Assembly: GCA_031285745.1 (NCBI GenBank)
Contig: JAITVQ010000286.1
Span: forward strand, 1-47,889
Source of the DNA: Puniceicoccales bacterium
GTDB taxonomy: Bacteria > Verrucomicrobiota > Verrucomicrobiia > Opitutales > UBA953
DNA length: 47,889 bases
Direction: 5' to 3'
This document shows positions 1,793 through 43,882 of the stretch, in pieces (position 1 is the stretch's first letter; each line of letters begins with the position of its first letter). The position numbers and the translations under genes were made by a program. The notes under the pieces are model-generated. The model ran no database searches and was not told where the DNA came from. It saw only the letters and a program-made list of their open reading frames with translations.

Positions 1793-2062
1793 GATCCACC
1801 CAAAAGCTGGAGTGATCTTCAGTGAAAACCTCCCCAGCAACAAAATTTCTTGTCTCACTTCCGTTACAAACCATCCCAGAAATTTGATTTCTCGAGTCAT
1901 TCACACTGGAGATCACTCCAGAAATTAAATTTCTCGACCCATCTCCGGTGAAGATCATCCCAGAAGTAAAACTTCTGGGGCCATCCACGGTTGAAATCAC
2001 TCTGGAAATTTAGATTCTGGGGGCATCTCCGATGGAAATGGCATGGGAATTTCAGCAATTTG
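1793..2062. repeat. Tandem palindromic repeat array A, period 42 bp, about 6 units
   Basis: Equivalent positions at 1835, 1877, 1919, 1961, 2003, 2045 (exactly 42 bp apart); core CCAGAAGTAAAACTTCTGG / CAGAAATTAAATTTCTC alternating with CATCTCCGGTGAAGATCA. Confidence 0.85.
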
Positions 2063-11085: not shown

Positions 11086-12651
11086 CTACTTTTTGGTTTT
11101 ATCTTCCGGCGATTCCAATACCGAACGGCGCATTTCGTCAGAGGGCAATATATGGAATTCGAAAGGCATGGCCTCTGCATAACCTAATTGCATCGATTGC
11201 GGCCCATCCGTCGCTTTCCAGTCGAGCGGCATTACACTCCATCGGCCACTTGAGAAATTTTCTTCATGAAAATTCCATTTTAAGGTCGGGTTGACAACCC
11301 ACAGGACACTGTGTTCGGGATTTTCCGGAACTGCCCGAAGCAACAAGGCGGGCTTGTCTGTCAGCAAAATCATATAAGGAGTGGTTTTTCCAAAAATCAT
11401 CTGATCCCAGTAAAATGATTTTCCTTTTTCCCCACCCCAATAACTACCAGAATAGAAACTCTTGGTGTAGTTAGGTCGTTTAGAACTAGCTTGTCCGTAA
11501 ATTTCCCTTAGTCGCTCAAAACCTTTCACATCTTCTACAGTAATATTATCCGCGTCTAACATATAAGCACCTGGGCCCACCAAATACCCTGTCTGAATAT
11601 ACTTTTTTGCCCCGTCAGGCAGAATAATCGGAGAGGATTCCCCAGTGGAAGGAAGGTGTAATTTTTCCAGTAAAACACGGGCTTCAGCGTTAATCGTTTT
11701 CAAGTAACTAAACCGTGCGATTCCTTTAAATAACCATTCGGCAGCCTGCCCACAAACAGACCCTCCAGCGCCTCCTTGCGAATCCTCCAGGGAATATTTC
11801 ATTATTGTGTAATCCTTGTCTACGCAAACGCCCTCCCGTTCGAAATGAAATTTTGGAATCCAAGGAAAATAATATTCATCGTTTCTCCTGACCAGCCCAT
11901 CAAGAACCATTGAAACGCCCTGCAAAGGCTGACGAATAGGAAGCGAGGCAGCCGATGAAGCGGCAGGAGACCGTTTTTGAGGACTGGGATTTTTCAGAAA
12001 AAAAGTAACTGGCTGAGTCTCCCCTGGGAAATTAATGACGAGCTTTTGCTTCTTGGCACTGTTGTTAAAGCCCTCGAAAGAAATGCTGTGAGCCACCTCC
12101 ACGGTTGATCCATCACGCCAATAATGGGTAATTAAATTTCCGCTTGAATATACACATCCATCTTCATCAACAAGACAGGCTTGCTTACGGGTAATGGCAT
12201 ATCCACCCGAACCACCCAAACCACTTCCGTTTTGGCCAAGTATGTCTTCTGTCATTTCCGGACAGAATCCTCGTTTTGGATTGGAGAGTGTATACCAAAT
12301 GCAAAAATTTTCTTTTCCTTCGGACATTACCTTAAAATCCCCCATGCCATTGGGCGGGTTTACTTGCAAGGTTTCAAAAATAAATTGACCCCACTTTTCT
12401 TTATGTATCCAGATTTTCATTCGCTGCAAAATATTTTTGAAATCATAAGTCGGGTCTTTGGCTACCTCCACTTTTACGATTTTGACAATGGTGCCATCGG
12501 ACAATGTGGCTCGCAGTTTATTCTCCTGGATGATCGCAACCAGAGCCAACGTCAGCAACACTGCTAGAACGAAGGCGATGCCCGCTAATCTACGCTTGGG
12601 TGAGGGTTTCGTTGAGGTGCGATCTGTAGTCTTCTCAGGCTGGAGTTCCAT
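11086..12651 (-). CDS. Membrane-anchored protein of unknown function, tandem paralog 1
   Basis: 521 aa; N-terminal TM then LSDGTIVKIVKVEV; shares FEGFNNSAKKQKLVINFPGE, KSFYWDQMIFGKTTPYMILLTDKPALLLRA, WKATDGPQSMQLGYAEAMPFEFHILP with neighbours. Confidence 0.8.
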   Translation of the reverse strand: MELQPEKTTDRTSTKPSPKRRLAGIAFVLAVLLTLALVAIIQENKLRATLSDGTIVKIVKVEVAKDPTYDFKNILQRMKIWIHKEKWGQFIFETLQVNPPNGMGDFKVMSEGKENFCIWYTLSNPKRGFCPEMTEDILGQNGSGLGGSGGYAITRKQACLVDEDGCVYSSGNLITHYWRDGSTVEVAHSISFEGFNNSAKKQKLVINFPGETQPVTFFLKNPSPQKRSPAASSAASLPIRQPLQGVSMVLDGLVRRNDEYYFPWIPKFHFEREGVCVDKDYTIMKYSLEDSQGGAGGSVCGQAAEWLFKGIARFSYLKTINAEARVLLEKLHLPSTGESSPIILPDGAKKYIQTGYLVGPGAYMLDADNITVEDVKGFERLREIYGQASSKRPNYTKSFYSGSYWGGEKGKSFYWDQMIFGKTTPYMILLTDKPALLLRAVPENPEHSVLWVVNPTLKWNFHEENFSSGRWSVMPLDWKATDGPQSMQLGYAEAMPFEFHILPSDEMRRSVLESPEDKTKK

Positions 12652-12660
12652 TTTTCGGCG

Positions 12661-14229
12661 CTATTGATTGGGCTTGGTCTTGGGAGATACTAATAGGGCC
12701 TGGCGCATTTCGTCCGTCGGCAGGATGTGAAACTCAAACGGGATGGCTTCCGCATAGCCTATTTTTATCGATTGTGGGCCATCCGTTTCTTTCCAGTCGA
12801 GCGGTATCACGTCCCATTTATTATCGGAGAAATCGCCTCGCATGGAATTCCATTTGGCTGATGCGCCTGAGATCAATAAAATGGCATGCTCGGTATTTTC
12901 CGGTGCAGCACGGAATAACAAGGTGGGTTTATCCGTTAATAAGAGTAACTTGGACGTGGTTTTTCCAAAGATCTCTTGCTCCCAATAAAAGGATTTTTGA
13001 TCCCGCATTCTTCTTCCATATTGTCCGGAATATAGACTTGAGACTGTCCTGACATTTCGTGGGTGAGGGATTTTTGCGAAAATACTCTTTTGTTTTTCCA
13101 GTTCATCAACACCTCCGACAGACACAATCTCGGTGGAATCCAATACATAGGTACCAGCTCCCACCAAGTAGGCTCTGAGCACAAATTTTTTCGCATCAAC
13201 CGTGAGGTCGATGGGGCGCCATTCTTGCGGCTGTGGCCAAACAAGATTTTCCAATTGAATTCGTTTGCGCGACTCAATCACGTCCACTCGGGCCTTTCGG
13301 GCAACTCCCTTGAGTATCCATTCACCAGCCCTGGCACAGACATCGTCTTTGTCTCCTCCTTGGGAATCACTCAGCGTATATTCCACCGTCGTGTAATCCT
13401 TATCCGCATTAGCATTGTTACGTTCAAAATGAATTTCTGGCTTCCATGGATTATACGCGTTTTTTGTTTTGGTCAGTTTGCTGAGGAGAATGGAGGCATC
13501 GCCCAAGGATTGCTTTATGGGGATTGATGAAGCCATTGCTGACGCAGGGACCCATTTTCGCGGACTGGGATTTTTCAAAATGAAGATAACAGGTTGTTTT
13601 TCTCCAGGAAAATTAATGACAAGTTTTTGTTTTTCAGAGGCATTATTAAAGCCCTCAAATGAAAAACCATGGATACGTTGTATGGTTTCCCCAAATTTCT
13701 GGTATTCTGCGGTCATCCACCCTTTTGAAGACGAGCATCCATCTTCGTCGACAAGGGCTACCTCTGCCGAGGAAAAACTCCGCATGGATGAGCCACTGGT
13801 CCCTCTTTCGACCAAATCATCATCCGCCATATCAGAAAAGAATCCGCATCGGGGATCACTAAGTGAATACCACACATGAAATATTTCATTTTTATCTCTA
13901 CCACGAACAGTAAAAACTCCAGCGTCACTGGGTAGATCTATTTTTATCACTTTAAGAATAGATCGCTCCCATCCTCGCGCTTGGAGCCATCCGCCCATCC
14001 GTTGCAAAAAATTGCGCGAATCGTATCTTGGTTCTTTGGATACTTCTACTTTTTCGATTTTAACAATGGTGCCATCGGATAACGTGGCTTGCAGTTTGTT
14101 TTCCTGCACACTCCCAACCAGAATGAGCACCAGCAACACCGCTAGAACGAGGGCGAAGCCCGCGAACTTACGTTTGACCGATGGTTTCGTTGAGGTGCGG
14201 GCTGTGGTTTTCTCAGGGTGCGGTTCCAT
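12661..14229 (-). CDS. Membrane-anchored protein of unknown function, tandem paralog 2
   Basis: 522 aa; same domain order and conserved blocks as paralog 1. Confidence 0.8.
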   Translation of the reverse strand: MEPHPEKTTARTSTKPSVKRKFAGFALVLAVLLVLILVGSVQENKLQATLSDGTIVKIEKVEVSKEPRYDSRNFLQRMGGWLQARGWERSILKVIKIDLPSDAGVFTVRGRDKNEIFHVWYSLSDPRCGFFSDMADDDLVERGTSGSSMRSFSSAEVALVDEDGCSSSKGWMTAEYQKFGETIQRIHGFSFEGFNNASEKQKLVINFPGEKQPVIFILKNPSPRKWVPASAMASSIPIKQSLGDASILLSKLTKTKNAYNPWKPEIHFERNNANADKDYTTVEYTLSDSQGGDKDDVCARAGEWILKGVARKARVDVIESRKRIQLENLVWPQPQEWRPIDLTVDAKKFVLRAYLVGAGTYVLDSTEIVSVGGVDELEKQKSIFAKIPHPRNVRTVSSLYSGQYGRRMRDQKSFYWEQEIFGKTTSKLLLLTDKPTLLFRAAPENTEHAILLISGASAKWNSMRGDFSDNKWDVIPLDWKETDGPQSIKIGYAEAIPFEFHILPTDEMRQALLVSPKTKPNQ

Positions 14230-14238
14230 TTTTCGAAG

Positions 14239-15562
14239 TCATTCCTTGGATTTGGTTTCAGGGGATACTAATAGAGGTTGGCGCATTTCTTCCGTCGGCA
14301 GGATATGAAACTCAAACGGGATGGCCTCCGCATAGCCTATTTTTATTGATTGCGGACCATCCGACTCTTTCCAATCCAGTGGCACCACATTCCACTTATC
14401 GGTTGAAAAATCTTTTTCGACCAAGTTCCATTTCAAGGTCGGATTGGAAACCAGCAAAGCACTGGATTCGGTATTCTTCAGCGCAGATCGTAGTACAAGC
14501 GCAGGTTTATCCGTCAACAAAAGCAACCGGGGTATCGTCTCCCCGAATATTCTTTGCTCCCAGTAAAAGGACTTTTTTTTCTCCTCATCCCAGTAGCTAT
14601 TGGAATAAAAAATACGGGAGGAATTCACCCCTGATGGCCGCGACATTTTTTGAAAAACGTCTTTCTGGTTTTCCAAATCATTGATTCCTCCAGCTGAGAT
14701 GACATCGTTTTCATCAAGCACATAAGTCCCAGCTCCGACCAAATACGCTTTCGTAATATATTTCCGGGTTTCACCGGGGATATCAACTGGACGATATTCC
14801 TGCGGTTGGGGAAAAAGCGAGTTTTCCAATGGAATACATTTTTCGGAATCAAGAATCTCTTGTTTTTTGGCCCGCATCACCCCCTTGAGCACCCATTCCC
14901 TAGCATGAACACAAATTTGCCCCTGGCCTCCGTTCTGCGTGTCACCCAGGTCGGAATTTATCACCATATAATCCTTGTTCGCATCAACACCATTGCACTC
15001 AAAGTGAAGCGTGGAGGCATAATAAGTAAGGAAGCGGGTTTTATACAATTTAAGGTCGCTCAAAGTGATTGAGACATCCCCCAAGGATTGTTTCACAGGG
15101 ATTGGCGAAGCCAGAGGAGATAAGGGAGGCCTTGTCCCTGAGATTGCCAGATCCCCATCTGCTGGAGCTACGGTTGCCTGCAAGAACCCTATCAACCTCT
15201 TCTGGAAAAAATCCCTTTTTCGGATCGCTGAGTGTATACCATACGAAAAATACCGGATGATCTTGGTCAGACATTTCAAAAATGCCTGATTTTCGAGGTG
15301 GTTTTATTCCAAATACTTTTAAAATGGAGCGCCCCCATTTGTATTCATTGAGCCATTCTCCCGTTTTTTGCAAAGGACTACGCGGATCGTAACGCGGGGT
15401 CTTGGTTACTTCTACCTTTACGATTTTGACAATGGTACCATCAGGCAATGTGACCTGCATTTTGTCATCATACAAACTTCCCCAAATAACCAGTATGGCT
15501 AAAATCAATACTGCCACACCGATCCCTGCGAATTTGCGTTTGATGGCTTGTTTCATCGGCAT
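14239..15562 (-). pseudogene. Tandem paralog 3, disrupted by internal deletion plus frameshift
   Basis: N-terminal half in ORF 15050..15562, C-terminal half in ORF 14239..15279 in another frame; central VDEDGC...FEGFNN...INFPGE block missing. Confidence 0.75.
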
Positions 15563-15574
15563 GGCTAATGCAGG

Positions 15575-17125
15575 TTATTTTTCCGGTCCGGATGGCGAAA
15601 CTGAGCGACGCATTTCTTCCGTCGGCAAAATGCGAAACTCAAAGGGCATTGCCTCCGTATAGCCTATTTCCAACGATTGTGGGCCATCTGTTTCTTTCCA
15701 GTCAAGCGACACTATACTCCATTTGCCGGCAGAAAAATCTTTTTCAACCAAGTCCCATTTCAAGGCTGGATTGGAAACCAACAAGGCACTCTGTTCTTTA
15801 TTAGTAGGCTCAGACCTTAACAAGAGGGCAGGCTTATCCGTCAGTAAAAGCAATCGGGGTATTGTTGTATCGAGCACTTTTTGCTGCCAGAAAAATGACT
15901 TTCTTTTTTCCTCATCCCAGTAACTTTCAGAATAAATGCTCCCGGAATAATTCGTTCCGTCTACTTGCGGCATTTTCTCCAAAAGCTCTTTCTGTCTTTC
16001 CAGCGCATCCAACCCCCCGGTCGAGACAACATCGTTGGCAGCGTCAAAGACATAAGTTCCAGCTCCCACCAAATAGATCTTCGACACAAATTTTTTCGTC
16101 GCATCCGGTACATCAACCAGATGATATTTTTCCGGTTGGATAAATGGGAGATTCTGCAATTCAGCCCGGTTTTCCGGTTTTACTGCCACCGTGCGTTTGG
16201 CACAAAAGAACCCTTTCAAAATCCACTCACTGGCCTTTGCGCAAACTGCCCAACTATCCCCACCTTGCGAGTCGCTTAACTTATATTCAAACGCCATGTA
16301 ATCCTTGTCCGCATCCGCTTCTTTGTTTTTGAACCGGAATTTTGTTTCCCAATCATGGACTGCATCAAGACTGATGGTTTCCAGAGCGGTTTTTTTCTTT
16401 TTGAAAAATTTTTCCAAAACAATCGATACCTCACCCGAAGTTTGCTCAATGGGAAGAGATGATGCCATGGGTGATGCGGCCTGAGCTTTACGCGGACTGG
16501 GGTTTTCCAAAATAAAGGTGACCGGTTGTTTTTCCCCAGGAAATGTAACGCTGAGTTTTTGCCTTTTTGCAGTGCGATTAAACGCTGTGAACGAAAAAGC
16601 ATACATGGTTACTACGCTACTATCCTCGAATTTCAGAAGTTGGCCCCACATATCTCCCTCCGAGTATATGCAACCATCCTCATCTATAAGATGTGCTTCG
16701 CCTGGAGAAATGCCTGACATCGATGATAGCATTGCTGTGTCTCTTTCCGAACTGGCCTCTAGGAACATTGGAGAAAAAAACCCACGTTGAAGATTGCTGA
16801 CTGAATACCAGATATGGAATGCTTCCTGCTCCGTGTCTTCACCAACGAAATAGAGGCCATCATCAGTTAGAGTTATTCCCAATTTCCAGAGAATGGATTG
16901 GCCCCATTCCCTCTTATTCAGCCATTCATTCAGCCGATACATACGACCGCGTGTATCGTAAACCGGAGTCTTGGTTACCTCCACCTTTTCGATTTTAACG
17001 ATAGTGCCGTCCGATAATCGCGCCTGTAGTTTGCCGTCTGCTAGACTCTTGATTATCGCCAATATTCCAATGACCAACAGGGCAACACCGATCCATGCAA
17101 GTTTCCACTGGGTAGTTTTTTTCAT
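15575..17125 (-). CDS. Membrane-anchored protein of unknown function, tandem paralog 4
   Basis: 516 aa; same conserved blocks as paralogs 1-3. Confidence 0.8.
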   Translation of the reverse strand: MKKTTQWKLAWIGVALLVIGILAIIKSLADGKLQARLSDGTIVKIEKVEVTKTPVYDTRGRMYRLNEWLNKREWGQSILWKLGITLTDDGLYFVGEDTEQEAFHIWYSVSNLQRGFFSPMFLEASSERDTAMLSSMSGISPGEAHLIDEDGCIYSEGDMWGQLLKFEDSSVVTMYAFSFTAFNRTAKRQKLSVTFPGEKQPVTFILENPSPRKAQAASPMASSLPIEQTSGEVSIVLEKFFKKKKTALETISLDAVHDWETKFRFKNKEADADKDYMAFEYKLSDSQGGDSWAVCAKASEWILKGFFCAKRTVAVKPENRAELQNLPFIQPEKYHLVDVPDATKKFVSKIYLVGAGTYVFDAANDVVSTGGLDALERQKELLEKMPQVDGTNYSGSIYSESYWDEEKRKSFFWQQKVLDTTIPRLLLLTDKPALLLRSEPTNKEQSALLVSNPALKWDLVEKDFSAGKWSIVSLDWKETDGPQSLEIGYTEAMPFEFRILPTEEMRRSVSPSGPEK

Positions 17126-17287
17126 CGAGGTAGGAAGGTTGTATAAACCTTGAAGATTTTGCGCGTTCGTCGAGCAGCAAATACAATTCTAACGGTTTCA
17201 AAGCCTATGGATTACTACCCTATTTTTTGCATTATTGTCTCTCATTTCTTGCCTGTGTAGTACGATGTACTACAAAAAGAATACTGC

Positions 17288-17959
17288 ATGGGTTCTTCTT
17301 CTTTCATCACCATTGCCATTGATGGCGGCGCGGCTTCGGGCAAGTCGTCCACGAGCCGGGCGCTGTCGTCTCGTTTTGGACTAATGCATGTCGATACCGG
17401 CGCGCATTACCGCACAGTATCCCTGGCCTTGGTTCGGGCTGGAGTAACTCCCGATGATGCCGAGAAAGCGGCGCAGGAATTGAAGTCCATTCCATTGGAT
17501 ACTGTAGTATCGGGAAATAACGCACGATTGGCCATCAATGGTGAAGTTCCCGACGATGCGGATCTAAGGACTCCCGAGATCAATGCCGTGGTGGCCCAGT
17601 TTGCGACGCTGCCCTGTGTACGCCGGTTTCTTTACGATTATCAGCGCGGACAAGTGGCCGTAGCAAAACAACGCGACTTTGCCGGGTTGATCATGGAAGG
17701 TCGCGATATTGGCTCAGTTATTTTGCCGGAGGCTGATCTGCGGTTATTTCTTGAGGCCGATCCAGTGGCACGGGCTGCTCGCCGTGCTGCAGAAGGACGG
17801 GTGGATGCAGTCGCCCAACGGGACAAGATAGATGCCTCTCGGGCGACGGCTCCCTTGGTTTGCCCCGAAGGAGCGACAAAAATAGACAGTACATATCTCA
17901 CGTTGGAAGAAGTCGTGGAGAAAATAGCCGGGATGATTTCGGCATTGTTGAATAAATAG
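17288..17959 (+). CDS. cmk: Cytidylate kinase
   Basis: IAIDGGAASGKSSTSRALSSRFGLMHVDTGAHYRTVSLAL, GLIMEGRDIGSVILPEADLRLFLEA. Confidence 0.92.
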   Translation: MGSSSFITIAIDGGAASGKSSTSRALSSRFGLMHVDTGAHYRTVSLALVRAGVTPDDAEKAAQELKSIPLDTVVSGNNARLAINGEVPDDADLRTPEINAVVAQFATLPCVRRFLYDYQRGQVAVAKQRDFAGLIMEGRDIGSVILPEADLRLFLEADPVARAARRAAEGRVDAVAQRDKIDASRATAPLVCPEGATKIDSTYLTLEEVVEKIAGMISALLNK

Positions 17960-17979
17960 TTTTCAGGTTTTATTTCGCC

Positions 17980-18627
17980 ATGCCTCTCGTTTCGGAGAAT
18001 CCTACCTACACTGTCGTTTACCATGCTGCGCGGTGGTTTGCCGATTTGTTTGGCCGTGTGGATATAAGTGGGCTGGAAAATGTCCCCAATACCGGTTGTA
18101 TCATCGCATGTAATCACCAGAGTTTTATGGATCCACCCCTTGTGGGATGCATAATACCCAAGGAAATATTTTTCTTCGCCCGCAAGACACTCTTTAACAA
18201 TCCTCTGCTCGGGCATATCTTGACAACGTGCAATACGATTCCCGTGGATCGCGATGGTGGTTCGGATGTGGCTGCCTTTAAAAAAGTGTTTTCAGTATTA
18301 AAGTCAGGACATAGTTTATTAATGTTCCCCGAGGGTACGCGAAGCAAGGATGGCAACTTGCAGGAAGCCAAGGCCGGTGTCGGGTTGATTGCCTGTAAAA
18401 CCCAAGTCCCGATACTCCCAGTCCGGGTATTTGGCGCAGAGAAACTACTCCCCCGGGGAAGTTCATTGCCAAGACCAAGCGCACGCGTGTCGGTCATCTT
18501 CAGAAAACCTCTGTTTCCGGCAGAATTTGACCCGGGCGCCAAGCACCCCGAGCGTTTTCTGGAAGCATCCCGGAGGGTCATGGAGAAAATAGCTTCCGCG
18601 GAAGAACTACCCGATGTGATTTTGTAG
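17980..18627 (+). CDS. plsC: 1-acyl-sn-glycerol-3-phosphate acyltransferase (PlsC-like)
   Basis: NHQSFMDPP and FPEGTRS acyltransferase motifs; downstream of cmk. Confidence 0.88.
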   Translation: MPLVSENPTYTVVYHAARWFADLFGRVDISGLENVPNTGCIIACNHQSFMDPPLVGCIIPKEIFFFARKTLFNNPLLGHILTTCNTIPVDRDGGSDVAAFKKVFSVLKSGHSLLMFPEGTRSKDGNLQEAKAGVGLIACKTQVPILPVRVFGAEKLLPRGSSLPRPSARVSVIFRKPLFPAEFDPGAKHPERFLEASRRVMEKIASAEELPDVIL

Positions 18628-18647
18628 AAATCACAGTATGACATAAT

Positions 18648-18681
18648 AAAAAAAGCATCCCTAAACAGGGATGCTTTTTTG
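18648..18681. terminator. Bidirectional Rho-independent terminator
   Basis: AAAAAAGCATCCCT-AAAC-AGGGATGCTTTTTT between convergent plsC and dnaN. Confidence 0.92.
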
Positions 18682-18701
18682 TTATCTTCTTTAAGGAAAG
18701 A

Positions 18702-19826
18702 TCAGTTTAACCGCTGAGGCATGACCACGCAGAGAAAGTCTTCCTTGTTTTTGAAAACACCGGGTGACATGTCGTCCTTGAATTCAAAGTGAACTGTGTC
18801 ATCAGCCAGAGCCTGAAGCGGATCGCTGAGGTACTGCGGATTGAAAGCAATCTGAACCGAAGGACCTTCGTATTTGACGGTCATTTTTTCGTGTGCTTCA
18901 CCAAATTCGGTGCTGGAAGCCGTGATCTCGATTTCGTTGTCCCCCACGATAAGCTTAACAGAGCTGCTCTTGTCGCTGGTCATAATGGCTGCACGCCTGA
19001 CACATTCGAGGAAGAGTTCGCGCTCAATATCCACACGATGGACGGTTTCCTTGGGGATCACCTGACGGTAATTGGGATAGTTACCCTCAACCACTTTGGA
19101 AACAAGGTGAATGTTGTCCACAAGACCGGTGTCATTCTTGGTGACCTGGGTCACAAATGAAACCTGACGATCATTGAAGGAAATTTTTACTTCACCGGCA
19201 TCACCCAGTAAACGCTGCAGTTCGGCAACAGTCTTGGCCGGAAGGATAAGGTTACCCGCTTGGTCTTCACCGATTGTCATCGACTTCGCCGAAGTGGCCA
19301 AACGGCGTCCATCAGTGGCCACCAGCGTCAATTTTTCCTCAGCAAAATTGAAAAATACCCCATTGAGAATGTAGCGATTTTCATCGGTGGACTGGGCATA
19401 AGCCACCTTTTTGAGGAGTCCGAGAAGATCTCCCTGAGCAAGTGTGAAATCGTGCTGATTGGCGAAAGTGGGAAGCGCAGGGAATTGGTCTGCAGCCAAG
19501 CCCATGATTTGAAATACCGAGCCTCCCGAGGTAATTTTTACCCGATTTTGTCCACTGAGTTCAACCGTGGTATCGTTGCTGGGGAGAGCCCGGACGATTG
19601 TCGCAAGCTTTTTGACCGGGAGCGTGATGCTTCCGGTTGTGCTAACCTCAGCCTTGATGCGGGCTCGAATACCGAGATCAAGATTGGTGGTGGTCAGGGA
19701 AACCGTATCACCTTCGGCCTGGATGAGAACGTTGCCCAAAATCGGCATGGATGCACGGGTTCCCACAACATTGGTGACCTGTGAGAGTCCGTTGACAAAA
19801 TGGTCGCGGTTGATTTTGAACTTCAT
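18702..19826 (-). CDS. dnaN: DNA polymerase III subunit beta (sliding clamp)
   Basis: [38 protein letters not shown]-terminal VVMPQRLN; full-length 374 aa. Confidence 0.95.
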
Positions 19827-20115
19827 GGTGCGCTGAACTTGAGGGGTCGTTTATTGGGAAGCAAACTTTTTGGTGTTCTTAGGTCGATGAACAATGATGT
19901 CATCCTTATTTTTGAAAAGCTAATAAAGAAGGTATTATTTTAAAAAGAGAAGTAGTCTTTATTAGGTGTTGTGAGTAGTGAGAAGAAGTACCTAAGCGGT
20001 TAATTTTTTGATTCTTAAAAGGGATGATTATCGTGAAGAACTTGGTTTGTTTATTTGTGAGGCGAATTGTGAATGAGTTGTTCGCGATGTAATCCAGAGG
20101 TTGTTAACAGGATTT

Positions 20116-29810: not shown

Positions 29811-30032
29811 ATTGCTGGATTTTTGAGAGACAGTCGCGCCTTTCATATAGCGGGTATTTTTGTCTCAAAATGCATTAGTGGATGGATACCCTCGCCGTCA
29901 GCGGCGGAAGCGCCAATGTCGTTGGAGATCATGCGGCCATCACTGACGGAAGAGCCATCTCCATTGAACCTCCTTGAGAAACAGAGATTTGCCCATTTGG
30001 GAATGGGTCATGTAAAAAGCAAGGGAGACTTG

Positions 30033-30322
30033 GGATAGCACTCAACTTCTACCATGATTTACAATGAAGATGCCCCTAGAATTTTTATTTCCAGCATGGT
30101 TTACATTGAAGATGGCTCCAGAAGTTGGTGAAGCTGTCATAATCCACAGTGAAGATGAGGCCAGAAATAAAAATTCTCGGATGATCTACGATGGAGATGG
30201 CCCTGGAATTTTTACTTCCAGCATGGTTTACACTGAAGATGGCTCCGGAAGTTGGTGAAGCTGTCATAATCCACGGTGAGGATTAAGCCAGAAATTGAAC
30301 TTCTTCATGGAGTATGTGGGAC
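30033..30322. repeat. Tandem palindromic repeat array B, 42/43-bp period with ~127-bp higher-order duplication; same family as array A
   Basis: Equivalent positions 30077, 30119, 30162, 30204, 30246, 30289; GAATTTTTA(T/C)TTCCAGCATGGTTTACA(T/C)TGAAGATGGCTCC(A/G)GAAGTTGGTGAAGCTGTCATAATCCAC occurs twice. Confidence 0.88.
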
Positions 30323-39344: not shown

Positions 39345-39500
39345 TGAAGGTAGCGTGATTGGAATCTGCGGGTTTCTGCTTGACCGGACGAAGACGTTTG
39401 AAAGTTTACTACTTCGCCAAGTTGAAAGAGACTTGGTCCATAAAAATGACCCGCTCCGCTGTTGCTTTTAGCACAAGGGCGGGTTTTCTTTTTATCCATC

Positions 39501-40469
39501 ATGGTTGCCGACTATAATAAACCGTTTCTTTCCATCGCCGAGCAGCGGGAGCTATTGGAAAAACGTGGCATGCAGGTGGATGATCGAGCGGAGGTGGAAC
39601 ATTATCTGCGACACGAGGGGTATTATCGGCTTAGTTCGTATTTTTACTCATTTCGATCGGTAGATAAACATGGAAAGCGGCTGGATGCTTTTGTTTCCGA
39701 CGCTAATTTCAGCGACGTAATCCAATTATATGAATTTGATAAGTGGCTGAGAACGAGCTTGTTATCGGGATTGAGGGCAATAGAAATTTCTGTCCGTGTT
39801 GCTATTGCCCACCATATGGGCCAAAAGGATATCTTTGCCCATGAGAATCCATACTGCCTGAATAGTAGTTTTGTTTCCAGGGAGAGTTCACGCAGAGGCA
39901 AGACGTGGTATCAAGTCTGGCTGGAGAAGTATCATCACCTGCTTTCGCGAGGAGACCAGGAAGACGTTGTGTTGAAGTTTATCGAAACCTATGGGCAGAA
40001 AATTCCAATTTGGGTTGCGATAGAAATATGGGATTTTGGATTACTTTCCCGTTTTTTTGGGGGAATGAAGTTTAATGACCAACAGGCAGTCTCTCGCCTC
40101 TACGGTGTGGACGATCCCCATTTTTTTTCCAGCTGGCTACGGGCATTTAATTATGTCCGCAACGTATGCGCGCATCATAGTCGGTTGTGGAATCGGAGTA
40201 TTGTGGAGCAACCCCGGTTACCCCGGAGAAATGAGATCCCAGAATTGAAACATCTGACAGAACGAGGAGTAAGTTCCCCCGGAGCGAGGACTTATGCGAC
40301 TTTGGCGTTGGCAACCTTCGTTCTGAAAAACATGGAGCATCAAGGGCCGTGGGTTGAAACGATAGTGAATTTGTTGAAGAAGTTTCCTGCATGTTCCAGC
40401 GTTTCGCTGAAGATGATGGGAGTCCCGGACGATTGGGAGGATCAACCGCTTTGGATACAGGAAGTATGA
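39501..40469 (+). CDS. Abi_2 family protein (AbiD/AbiF-like, HEPN-type)
   Basis: [66 protein letters not shown] (RxxxxH). Confidence 0.88.
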
Positions 40470-42352: not shown

Positions 42353-42387
42353 GACCAAGCAACCGTCACGACTTCTGTCGGATGCCA

Positions 42388-42610
42388 TCATGAAACAGTA
42401 ACGAAGGGCAAGTAGTGCGAATAAAAGAGTCCTGATGGCAATAATGTTCTATGTGGAACATTAGACCTCTTCGGGAAATGGAGAAGAAAATGATGCATAA
42501 CCAGCGTGTATATGGTAAGTTGAGAAGAGGTATTATCGAAATCTAAGAACGATTTGAACTTCGCCCACAGATGCTCTATCGGGTTTAAATCAGGCGAATA
42601 GACAAGTAGG
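42388..42610 (-). mobile_element. IS630-like transposase C-terminal remnant
   Basis: Minus-strand frame reads LLVYSPDLNPIEHLWAKFKSFLDFDNTSSQLTIYTLVMHHFL..., the DDE motif YSPDLNPIE-LWA. Confidence 0.75.
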
Positions 42611-42859
42611 CTTTTATTGAAAACAATTCTCTCTTCTATTGTCCCAATGCCTATGGGAATTACTATAGATAAACAAAAACCTTGGTTGGGAGCGACGGGC
42701 TCCAGTTCGTCGTGGAGGGACCTTGCTGGTTCTCGAGGCGATTATGTCTGGCGCCAACCTGGCGACGATGTGGATGCTGGCGCTCCCGGCGGCGTTTATT
42801 CTCTTGTTGAATATATTTCCCATGTGGAAAGCGAAACCTTGCAAGCACTGGATGAGCCG

Positions 42860-43210
42860 TTTTCGCATGAGATGGAAACGGAAAAACATTTGCAGAGTCC
42901 TTTCCGTCGCGTGCAGAAGAGCCGTGTCATTTGATTTGGTCTTTCCGCCGTCGGCGGAAAGACTTCGTCATTCGGCACAGCATTTCCGACGACGACGACG
43001 AAGCGGTGTCATTTGGCAACTTATTTCCCCCGACGGCGGAAGTACCAAATCTTTTGGCAAATGATTTCCGTCGTCTGCAGAGATACTGTGTCATTGGGCA
43101 AAGTGTTTCCGTCACGTGCAGAAACACCAAATCATTTGACGACATACTTCCGTCGTCGACGGAAATAGCTCGTCAAATGACACAGTCTCACCGCCATTTG
43201 CAGGATAGAC
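42860..43210. repeat. Tandem palindromic repeat array C, exact 41-bp period, 8-9 units
   Basis: Hairpin cores at 42901, 42942, 42983, 43024, 43065, 43106, 43147, 43188 (41 bp each), e.g. TTTCCGCCGTCGGCGGAAA and CTTCCGTCGTCGACGGAAAT, alternating with GTGTCATTTG / CAAATGACAC blocks. Confidence 0.9.
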
Positions 43211-43882
43211 TCTCCAAACATTTCCCCAATTGATTTAAAATCAGGCACAAGCTCCACGAGTGACTTAATGGTCCATGCAGAGACGCCTTGGGCGTATCTT
43301 CAAAAAAACATGAGAACGAACACACACAGAGTGTCATGTTATACAGTTGTTAAGACCAGAAAGACAGAGGGTGGACGAGAAGTCACTGTGGCAGTGCTAA
43401 AAATTAACGTAATCCGGCGCTGGGACCGTCTGAGACTGGGTCTAGTAAGCGAGGGCACCCGTCCAAGGATGACCGGCTAATGTTTGAGGGGATGTATTAT
43501 GTGCTGTGCACCGCGGGTTGCCTTGGCGGGATCTGCCGAGTGAGTTTGGTTCCTGGCAATCAGTCTACACGCGTTATAGGCGCTGGTGCCGATGTGGCTT
43601 ATGCCGAACAGTTCCCCTCAATTGCTCATGTCGACTGAAAGAGTAGAAGATAGCATATTGCTTGTATCTGAATGCTAATTAATACGAAAAGAAACCGCTT
43701 AGGAAGGGTGTTTTATGAGAAGCAAAATGTTTATGGCATTCGGGTTACAACAATATGACGTCGCTGCATAATGCTTTTATTGTCAAAGAATTGCTATTGG
43801 CTATTTAGGTTAGGGAGAAATTTTTGCCTTTTTGTTTCCCGCTCGCCTTGATTAAGCGGGTGAATACAAGAATCTTCTCACA

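Follow-up and report, generated by a model that had tools for sequence, protein, structure and literature searches.

What kind of DNA lies between mnmG and the gene for a PhoB-type regulator in this Puniceicoccales bacterium? The window analysed here, a stretch of 47,889 nucleotides (contig JAITVQ010000286.1 of assembly GCA_031285745.1), holds at this locus a tandem array of short palindromic units, array C. A sequence-only reading had described it as eight units at exact 41-bp spacing plus a degenerate one near position 42860, each with two palindromes (P1 and P2), and had put it forward, in a class shared with arrays A and B of the same window, as its strongest candidate for an undescribed type of element. 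Coordinates are collected in Table 1.

Table 1. Features of the window that bear on array C and its relatives (positions within the window)
Feature	Position	Strand	Description
Array A, same superfamily as array C	1840–2050		period of 42 bp, P1 CCAGAAnTnnAnTTCTGG; 83% paralogue, on contig C60
Fragment left of array B	29892–29966	+	77–79% to units of another family (array in L102, P1 CGTCAgTGACGG)
Left-flank block of array B, also present in the C174 copy of array C	29969–30037	+	86–87%
Array B, same superfamily as array C	30040–30310		127-bp block of three units (42+42+43), present twice; 82% paralogue, on contig C266
mnmG–phoB intergenic region holding array C	42353–43882		1530 bp
Probable left end of array C element, cctcttcgggaaatgg...	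42460–42484	+	weak match, 80% over 25 bp, E 0.017, to left end of the C174 copy
IS630-type transposase remnant, YSPDLNPIEHLWAKFK	42480–42630	-	DDE_3, E 2.4e-4, under curated cut-off; motif by eye
Homology with second array C copy	42754–43293	+	array with flanks of ~100 bp (left) and ~80 bp (right)
Array C	42860–43228		degenerate unit at 42860 and eight 41-bp units; P1 at unit start, P2 between

The described regularity is real. After the degenerate unit, the eight regular ones start at 42901, 42942, 42983, 43024, 43065, 43106, 43147 and 43188, each opening with a P1 of the TTTCCGtCGnCGaCGGAAA type (arms TTTCCGTCG..CGACGGAAA) and carrying a P2 of the CCAAATnATTTG / TGTCATTTG type. Self-match is 0.56, 0.60 and 0.56 at lags of 41, 82 and 123, so that the 41-bp autocorrelation stands well above the mean best self-match of 0.31 (lags 30–60) for random stretches of the window; the largest random values reach 0.55, probably in stretches that overlap array A. 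P1 dyads form on average 5.8 of 9 pairs at period 41 against 3.75 (sd 0.17) in composition shuffles, and the folding energy of the array lies ~10 sd below that of dinucleotide shuffles on both strands, in keeping with the strong palindrome that had been claimed. P2 had been called a palindrome as well: its half-sites TGTCATTTG and CAAATGACA do occur, in both orientations, in different units, but its pairing (3.9 of 9) is at the shuffled level, making it a weak palindrome only.

A second copy of array C lies on the minus strand of another contig (C174, locus L009, 7241–7781), with 80% identity over 543 bp. The probable left end of the element is separated from the remainder by ~250 bp, and between the two sits the IS630-type transposase remnant. 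The element and the remnant are contained in extra DNA: the mnmG–phoB gap has a median of 212 bp in 47 relatives that share the gene order, against 1530 bp here, and the order mnmE-mnmG-phoB-phoR is old. The nearest named records for MnmG are Opitutae/Puniceicoccales MAGs (best 76% identity), for which isolate names let us guess a termite-gut origin.

Other features of the window are recorded in passing. An Abi_2 family gene (39462–40469; PF07751, E 3e-49) separates mnmE from mnmG, two genes that nearly all relatives have side by side, and is a probable defence-type insertion. Four direct copies of a ~1.3–1.6 kb segment, 68–83% alike, occupy 11129–17032 and are probably tandem paralogous genes. 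GC skew shifts from negative to positive, and stays so, within 17000–20000.

Arrays of this kind are not confined to the window. The assembly (2.96 Mb in 299 contigs, fragmented, 92% complete) was read to about a fifth. A census sample of 40 contigs picked by number only (319,654 bp), scanned for lags and palindromes, yielded 11 further arrays, ~1 per 29 kb, which extrapolates to ~100 arrays per genome and upholds the proposal of a class of elements; contigs picked for weak similarity to array C held more arrays than the census sample. Near-identical arrays stand at the ends of several contigs (L033, L035, L036, L109), which makes arrays a probable cause of assembly breaks and their count a probable underestimate. 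They are dispersed in multiple copies and comprise over a dozen sequence families, with P1 types that include TTGCTA..TAGCAA, TTGCCGG..CCGGCAA, TTCCGCG..CGCGGAA, CTTGCG..CGCAAG, CGTCA..TGACG, TTTCCCG..CGGGAAA, CTGACATGTCAG and CCAGAAGT..ACTTCTGG. Wherever flanking genes can be called the arrays are intergenic, and the ORFs that overlap them are short ones running through the arrays. Array boundaries were placed by eye; element ends are not sharp, and similarity of flanks fades over ~100 bp.

The plan of the unit is more constant than its sequence. The period is 42 bp in most arrays, 41 in array C and its copy, and 43 in two others (L086 and L119). The centre of P2 lies 21.0 bp from that of P1 wherever P2 is a clear dyad; several families, array C among them, have a P2 without a clear palindrome. 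In most arrays one unit resembles another about as well inverted (as reverse complement) as direct, the exceptions being array B, L054 and L094, of which the latter two perhaps have a mis-set centre. Most arrays are thus series of a 21-bp half unit in alternating orientation, which explains the two alternating palindromes noted before. Whole units are gained or lost: compared with sister copies, L099 is two units short and L114 is short of one. A single long fold-back palindrome was considered and rejected for the arrays at large; whole-array dyads score very high, yet overall nothing sets the middle axis apart (14 of 27 arrays), and the scores follow from repeated local symmetry without being separate evidence. 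Only at the termini of TTGC-family elements is the fold-back reading retained.

Two further observations were made near arrays. A separate long palindrome, GATCGCCGGCGTC...GACGCCGGCGATC, at L096:4880-4990 is perhaps another REP family. The left flanks of four arrays of the TTCCGCG family (L114, L104, L096, L103) carry a TTATTCACA-like sequence, the E. coli DnaA-box consensus, which may be chance.

A period of 42 bp is also that of a 14-residue protein repeat, and the same genome has an intact YadA_head gene of this period (L048 8026–8874, contig C20; PF05658, E 4e-16), so the arrays might be decayed coding repeats of trimeric autotransporter heads; several of them do have one stop-free frame. 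However, in array C the 41-bp period rotates the reading frames, stops occur in all six, and ORFs across it or its C174 copy match no Pfam family, PF05658 included. TTGC arrays have stops in most frames, and throughout it is pairing rather than a peptide that is conserved, in arrays that lie between genes. We give this origin hardly any credence, and the shared 42 bp is probably a coincidence with the 14-residue repeat. The earlier inference that 41, not being a multiple of 3, means non-coding DNA was right in its outcome; as an argument it is valid for array C only, most arrays having a period of 42 bp.

How are the families related? The sequence-only reading had assigned arrays A/B and array C to one architecture, which is borne out, and had called their sequences unrelated, which is not. 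With the P1 centres of 13 families aligned, P2 columns agree in phase (0.584, against a null of 0.000 with sd 0.070; 0 of 2000 relabellings), as do P1 columns (0.459, sd 0.106); bases were relabelled in complement-preserving ways, a null that alters base composition, so the size of either effect is approximate. A rough unit consensus across families reads TTTCC..GGAAA for P1 and CCAA..TTGG for P2. Because of this phase-locked consensus, and because the left flank of array B matches that of the C174 copy of array C, arrays A/B and C are distant relatives. Array B and the adjoining fragment, which resembles the array in L102, make up a composite of elements.

Among relatives the arrays were looked for in ~1 Mb (735 kb at Opitutae mnmG loci plus 284 kb of stretches) and none was seen, the best matches there being, by eye, G+C-rich coding repeats or simple repeats. 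An automatic detector of five phased palindromes, which has poor specificity in G+C-rich coding DNA, gave scores of at least 6.5 to 14 sequences of this genome and to none of a relative (maximum 6.4). Sequence searches with three arrays returned no copies in congeners; one family has at least nine copies in this genome and none in eight congeners. In 94 other relatives nothing beyond chance-level matches (E ~0.01) to array C appears, and the phage, viral, plasmid and genome collections searched lack it. On balance we favour an expansion of the superfamily in this lineage alone.

Six full-length 425-bp elements of two subfamilies align without gaps. In the inner P1 arms, a unit agrees at only 0.10 with the same unit of the other subfamily, against 0.79 with other units of the same element; the relation is reversed for the P1 loop (0.70 against 0.42) and for the spacer and P2 (0.77 against 0.53). 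The subfamilies differ at 29 of 32 inner-arm sites and at 77 of 393 sites elsewhere. In a second pair, L033 and L103, agreement for P1 is 0.45 with the same unit and 0.62 within the element, and for P2 0.83 and 0.55. Thus P1 has been rewritten in step across all units, P2 is inherited unit by unit, and in the better-resolved case the inner P1 arms alone have changed. These count as two independent cases, since elements within a subfamily are not independent of each other.

What could change one part of every unit at once? Cytosine methylation with deamination in one subfamily (CCGG to CTAG-like, CG to TA) would do so at CpG sites, and the TTGCCGG subfamily has 10 inner-arm CpGs at which 39 of 40 comparisons show TA instead, transitions making up 25 of the 29 inner-arm differences. 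Yet 27 of 44 comparisons show a CpG preserved beyond the inner arms, where inside them the figure is 0 of 40; this excludes a general loss of CpG, and the L033/L103 case is not a CG/TA change; we regard deamination as a very unlikely cause.

Alternatively the arrays could be purely mutational products to which nothing binds, slippage producing tandem units, template switching within hairpins perfecting palindromes and conversion between units spreading P1. Gains and losses of whole units agree with this, as do palindromes equally good on either strand, and template switching between the arms of inverted repeats, which homogenises arms and inverts spacers, is documented (PMC8604942, PMC8794818). 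But switching within a hairpin equalises the arms of one unit and not those of all units, and conversion or unequal exchange of units would drag loops and P2 along, whereas loops stay unit-specific and P2 is not homogenised. The 41–43-bp period in families of differing sequence is also left unexplained. We hold a purely mutational origin to be rather doubtful. What fits the concerted change of P1 best, judging from the two cases, is selection for one common half-site sequence, that is, recognition in trans. A convincing isolated P1 site beside a candidate regulator gene was not found, 29 of the 30 TTGCTA..TAGCAA sites lying within arrays.

The elements might instead be genes for structured RNAs made of tandem hairpins, in many diverged copies. 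Predicted folding is very strong (z ~ -10), and in the TTGC family, in element orientation, A-C mismatches outnumber G-T, as G-U pairs on the opposite strand would have it. But the two strands fold about equally well, as any palindromic DNA would; pooled mismatches are balanced (111 G-T against 102 A-C), the skew of one family being inherited and so not independent; and stem sequence and unit number vary freely between whole families. A search of the window and nine array-bearing loci at Rfam gathering scores found tRNAs only, with no match for the arrays. We think RNA genes an unlikely explanation.

Our best explanation, which we consider somewhat more probable than not to be right, is that array C is one diverged copy of a dispersed, intergenic and non-autonomous element that spreads in the manner of a MITE and whose P1 is recognised in trans. 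Such an element comprises ~4–10 units of 41–43 bp, each with a strong P1 dyad and a weaker, more conserved P2 dyad offset by half a unit; since these 21 bp are two helical turns, every dyad faces the same side of the helix, and period and phasing suggest a protein bound along that side. Copies would spread with enzymes supplied in trans. The P1 arms would be half-sites, most simply for a dimeric DNA-binding protein, for which a mobilising recombinase and a protein coating the array are both candidates; were its specificity to shift, all sites of an element would follow. Template switching in hairpins may in part keep the dyads perfect. Neither the mobilising enzyme nor the P1 binder was found, and an empty site for a single copy was not seen. 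Beyond this, it is a tentative possibility that the arrays form a mobile superfamily in which P1 half-sites are switched as a set, a family of cognate trans-acting factors co-evolving with them while the helix-phased dyads stay invariant.

Dispersed palindromic repeats are common in bacteria; ~100 arrays of over a dozen families on one 42-bp (2 x 21) plan are unusual, and the concerted change of P1 over a P2 that is orthologous unit by unit, in two comparisons, is new here. Rewriting of P1 arms as a set, with loops and spacers untouched, amounts to a natural experiment that tells sites recognised in trans from parts that are simply inherited. TTGCTA and TTGCCGG arrays on the same backbone offer matched DNA baits for finding the recogniser. 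In this lineage arrays are also an ordinary source of inflated intergenic regions and broken assemblies.

Among known systems, a CRISPR array does not describe array C: its repeats are 51–57% alike, its spacers are themselves repeated and its neighbours are mnmG and the gene for the PhoB-type regulator. Tandem units of ~43 bp that contain a dyad and keep to one helix face also make up sopC of the F plasmid and further partition or iteron arrays. The analogy is of form only, for here there are ~100 dispersed arrays of many families, with no linked partition genes seen. BIMEs, in which two palindromes alternate, resemble the arrays in that alternation and, like REPs, in forming clusters of extragenic palindromes.

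The REP/BIME system is served by RAYT transposases (PMC3733652), and a linked Y1 transposase had been suggested as something to look for. The genome has three Y1/RAYT genes (L221, L222, L223), two with ordinary GTAG-type REPs, GTAGCGCAGGCT..AGCCTGC, beside or inside the gene end and the third (L223) flanked by a different repeat, TGGAGGGACGAGCTC..GAGTCCGTGG; no array is present at any of the three loci. Array stems moreover lack the adjoining, unpaired GTAG or CGTC tag that marks the 20–40-bp palindromes of REPs (the CGTC of array C is within the stem, not an unpaired tag), and the 42-bp unit with 21-bp phasing is distinct from REP/BIME.

The BOX element of Streptococcus pneumoniae (boxA-boxB(n)-boxC, 67–637 bp) is intergenic and strongly folding, with target duplications reported (PMC3049150). 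Compared by architecture only, the arrays are likewise dispersed, modular and non-autonomous; the count of tandem internal modules varies in both, and both proliferated in one lineage. BOX, however, forms a single sequence family whose end modules are fixed; the arrays are many families of one architecture, with a symmetric dyad unit, concerted rewriting of P1 and end modules defined in one family only.

With prokaryotic MITEs and fold-back elements (reviewed in PMC10969869) the arrays share short, non-coding, non-autonomous, high-copy sequences dispersed between genes and, in the TTGC family, inverted termini (GCTGCGGAAATCGAAATC...GATTTCGATTTCCGCAAC) that are common to copies with different P1. 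The terminal motif, with at most two mismatches, occurs in 16 places, 12 of them in known array loci; the four weakest are outside these loci or, at C83, unmatched to them. No target-site duplication was visible by eye at the ends, themselves uncertain, of five aligned TTGC copies, and this fragmented, 92%-complete genome yielded no autonomous insertion sequence sharing the ends. The interior differs from that of a MITE in being a phased array of dyads rather than a deleted transposon. In the open-access literature covered, we found analogues and no description of this class of arrays. The suggestion of an undescribed element type holds for the details, which are new; in its manner of working the element belongs with the known dispersed palindromic repeats such as MITEs and BOX.
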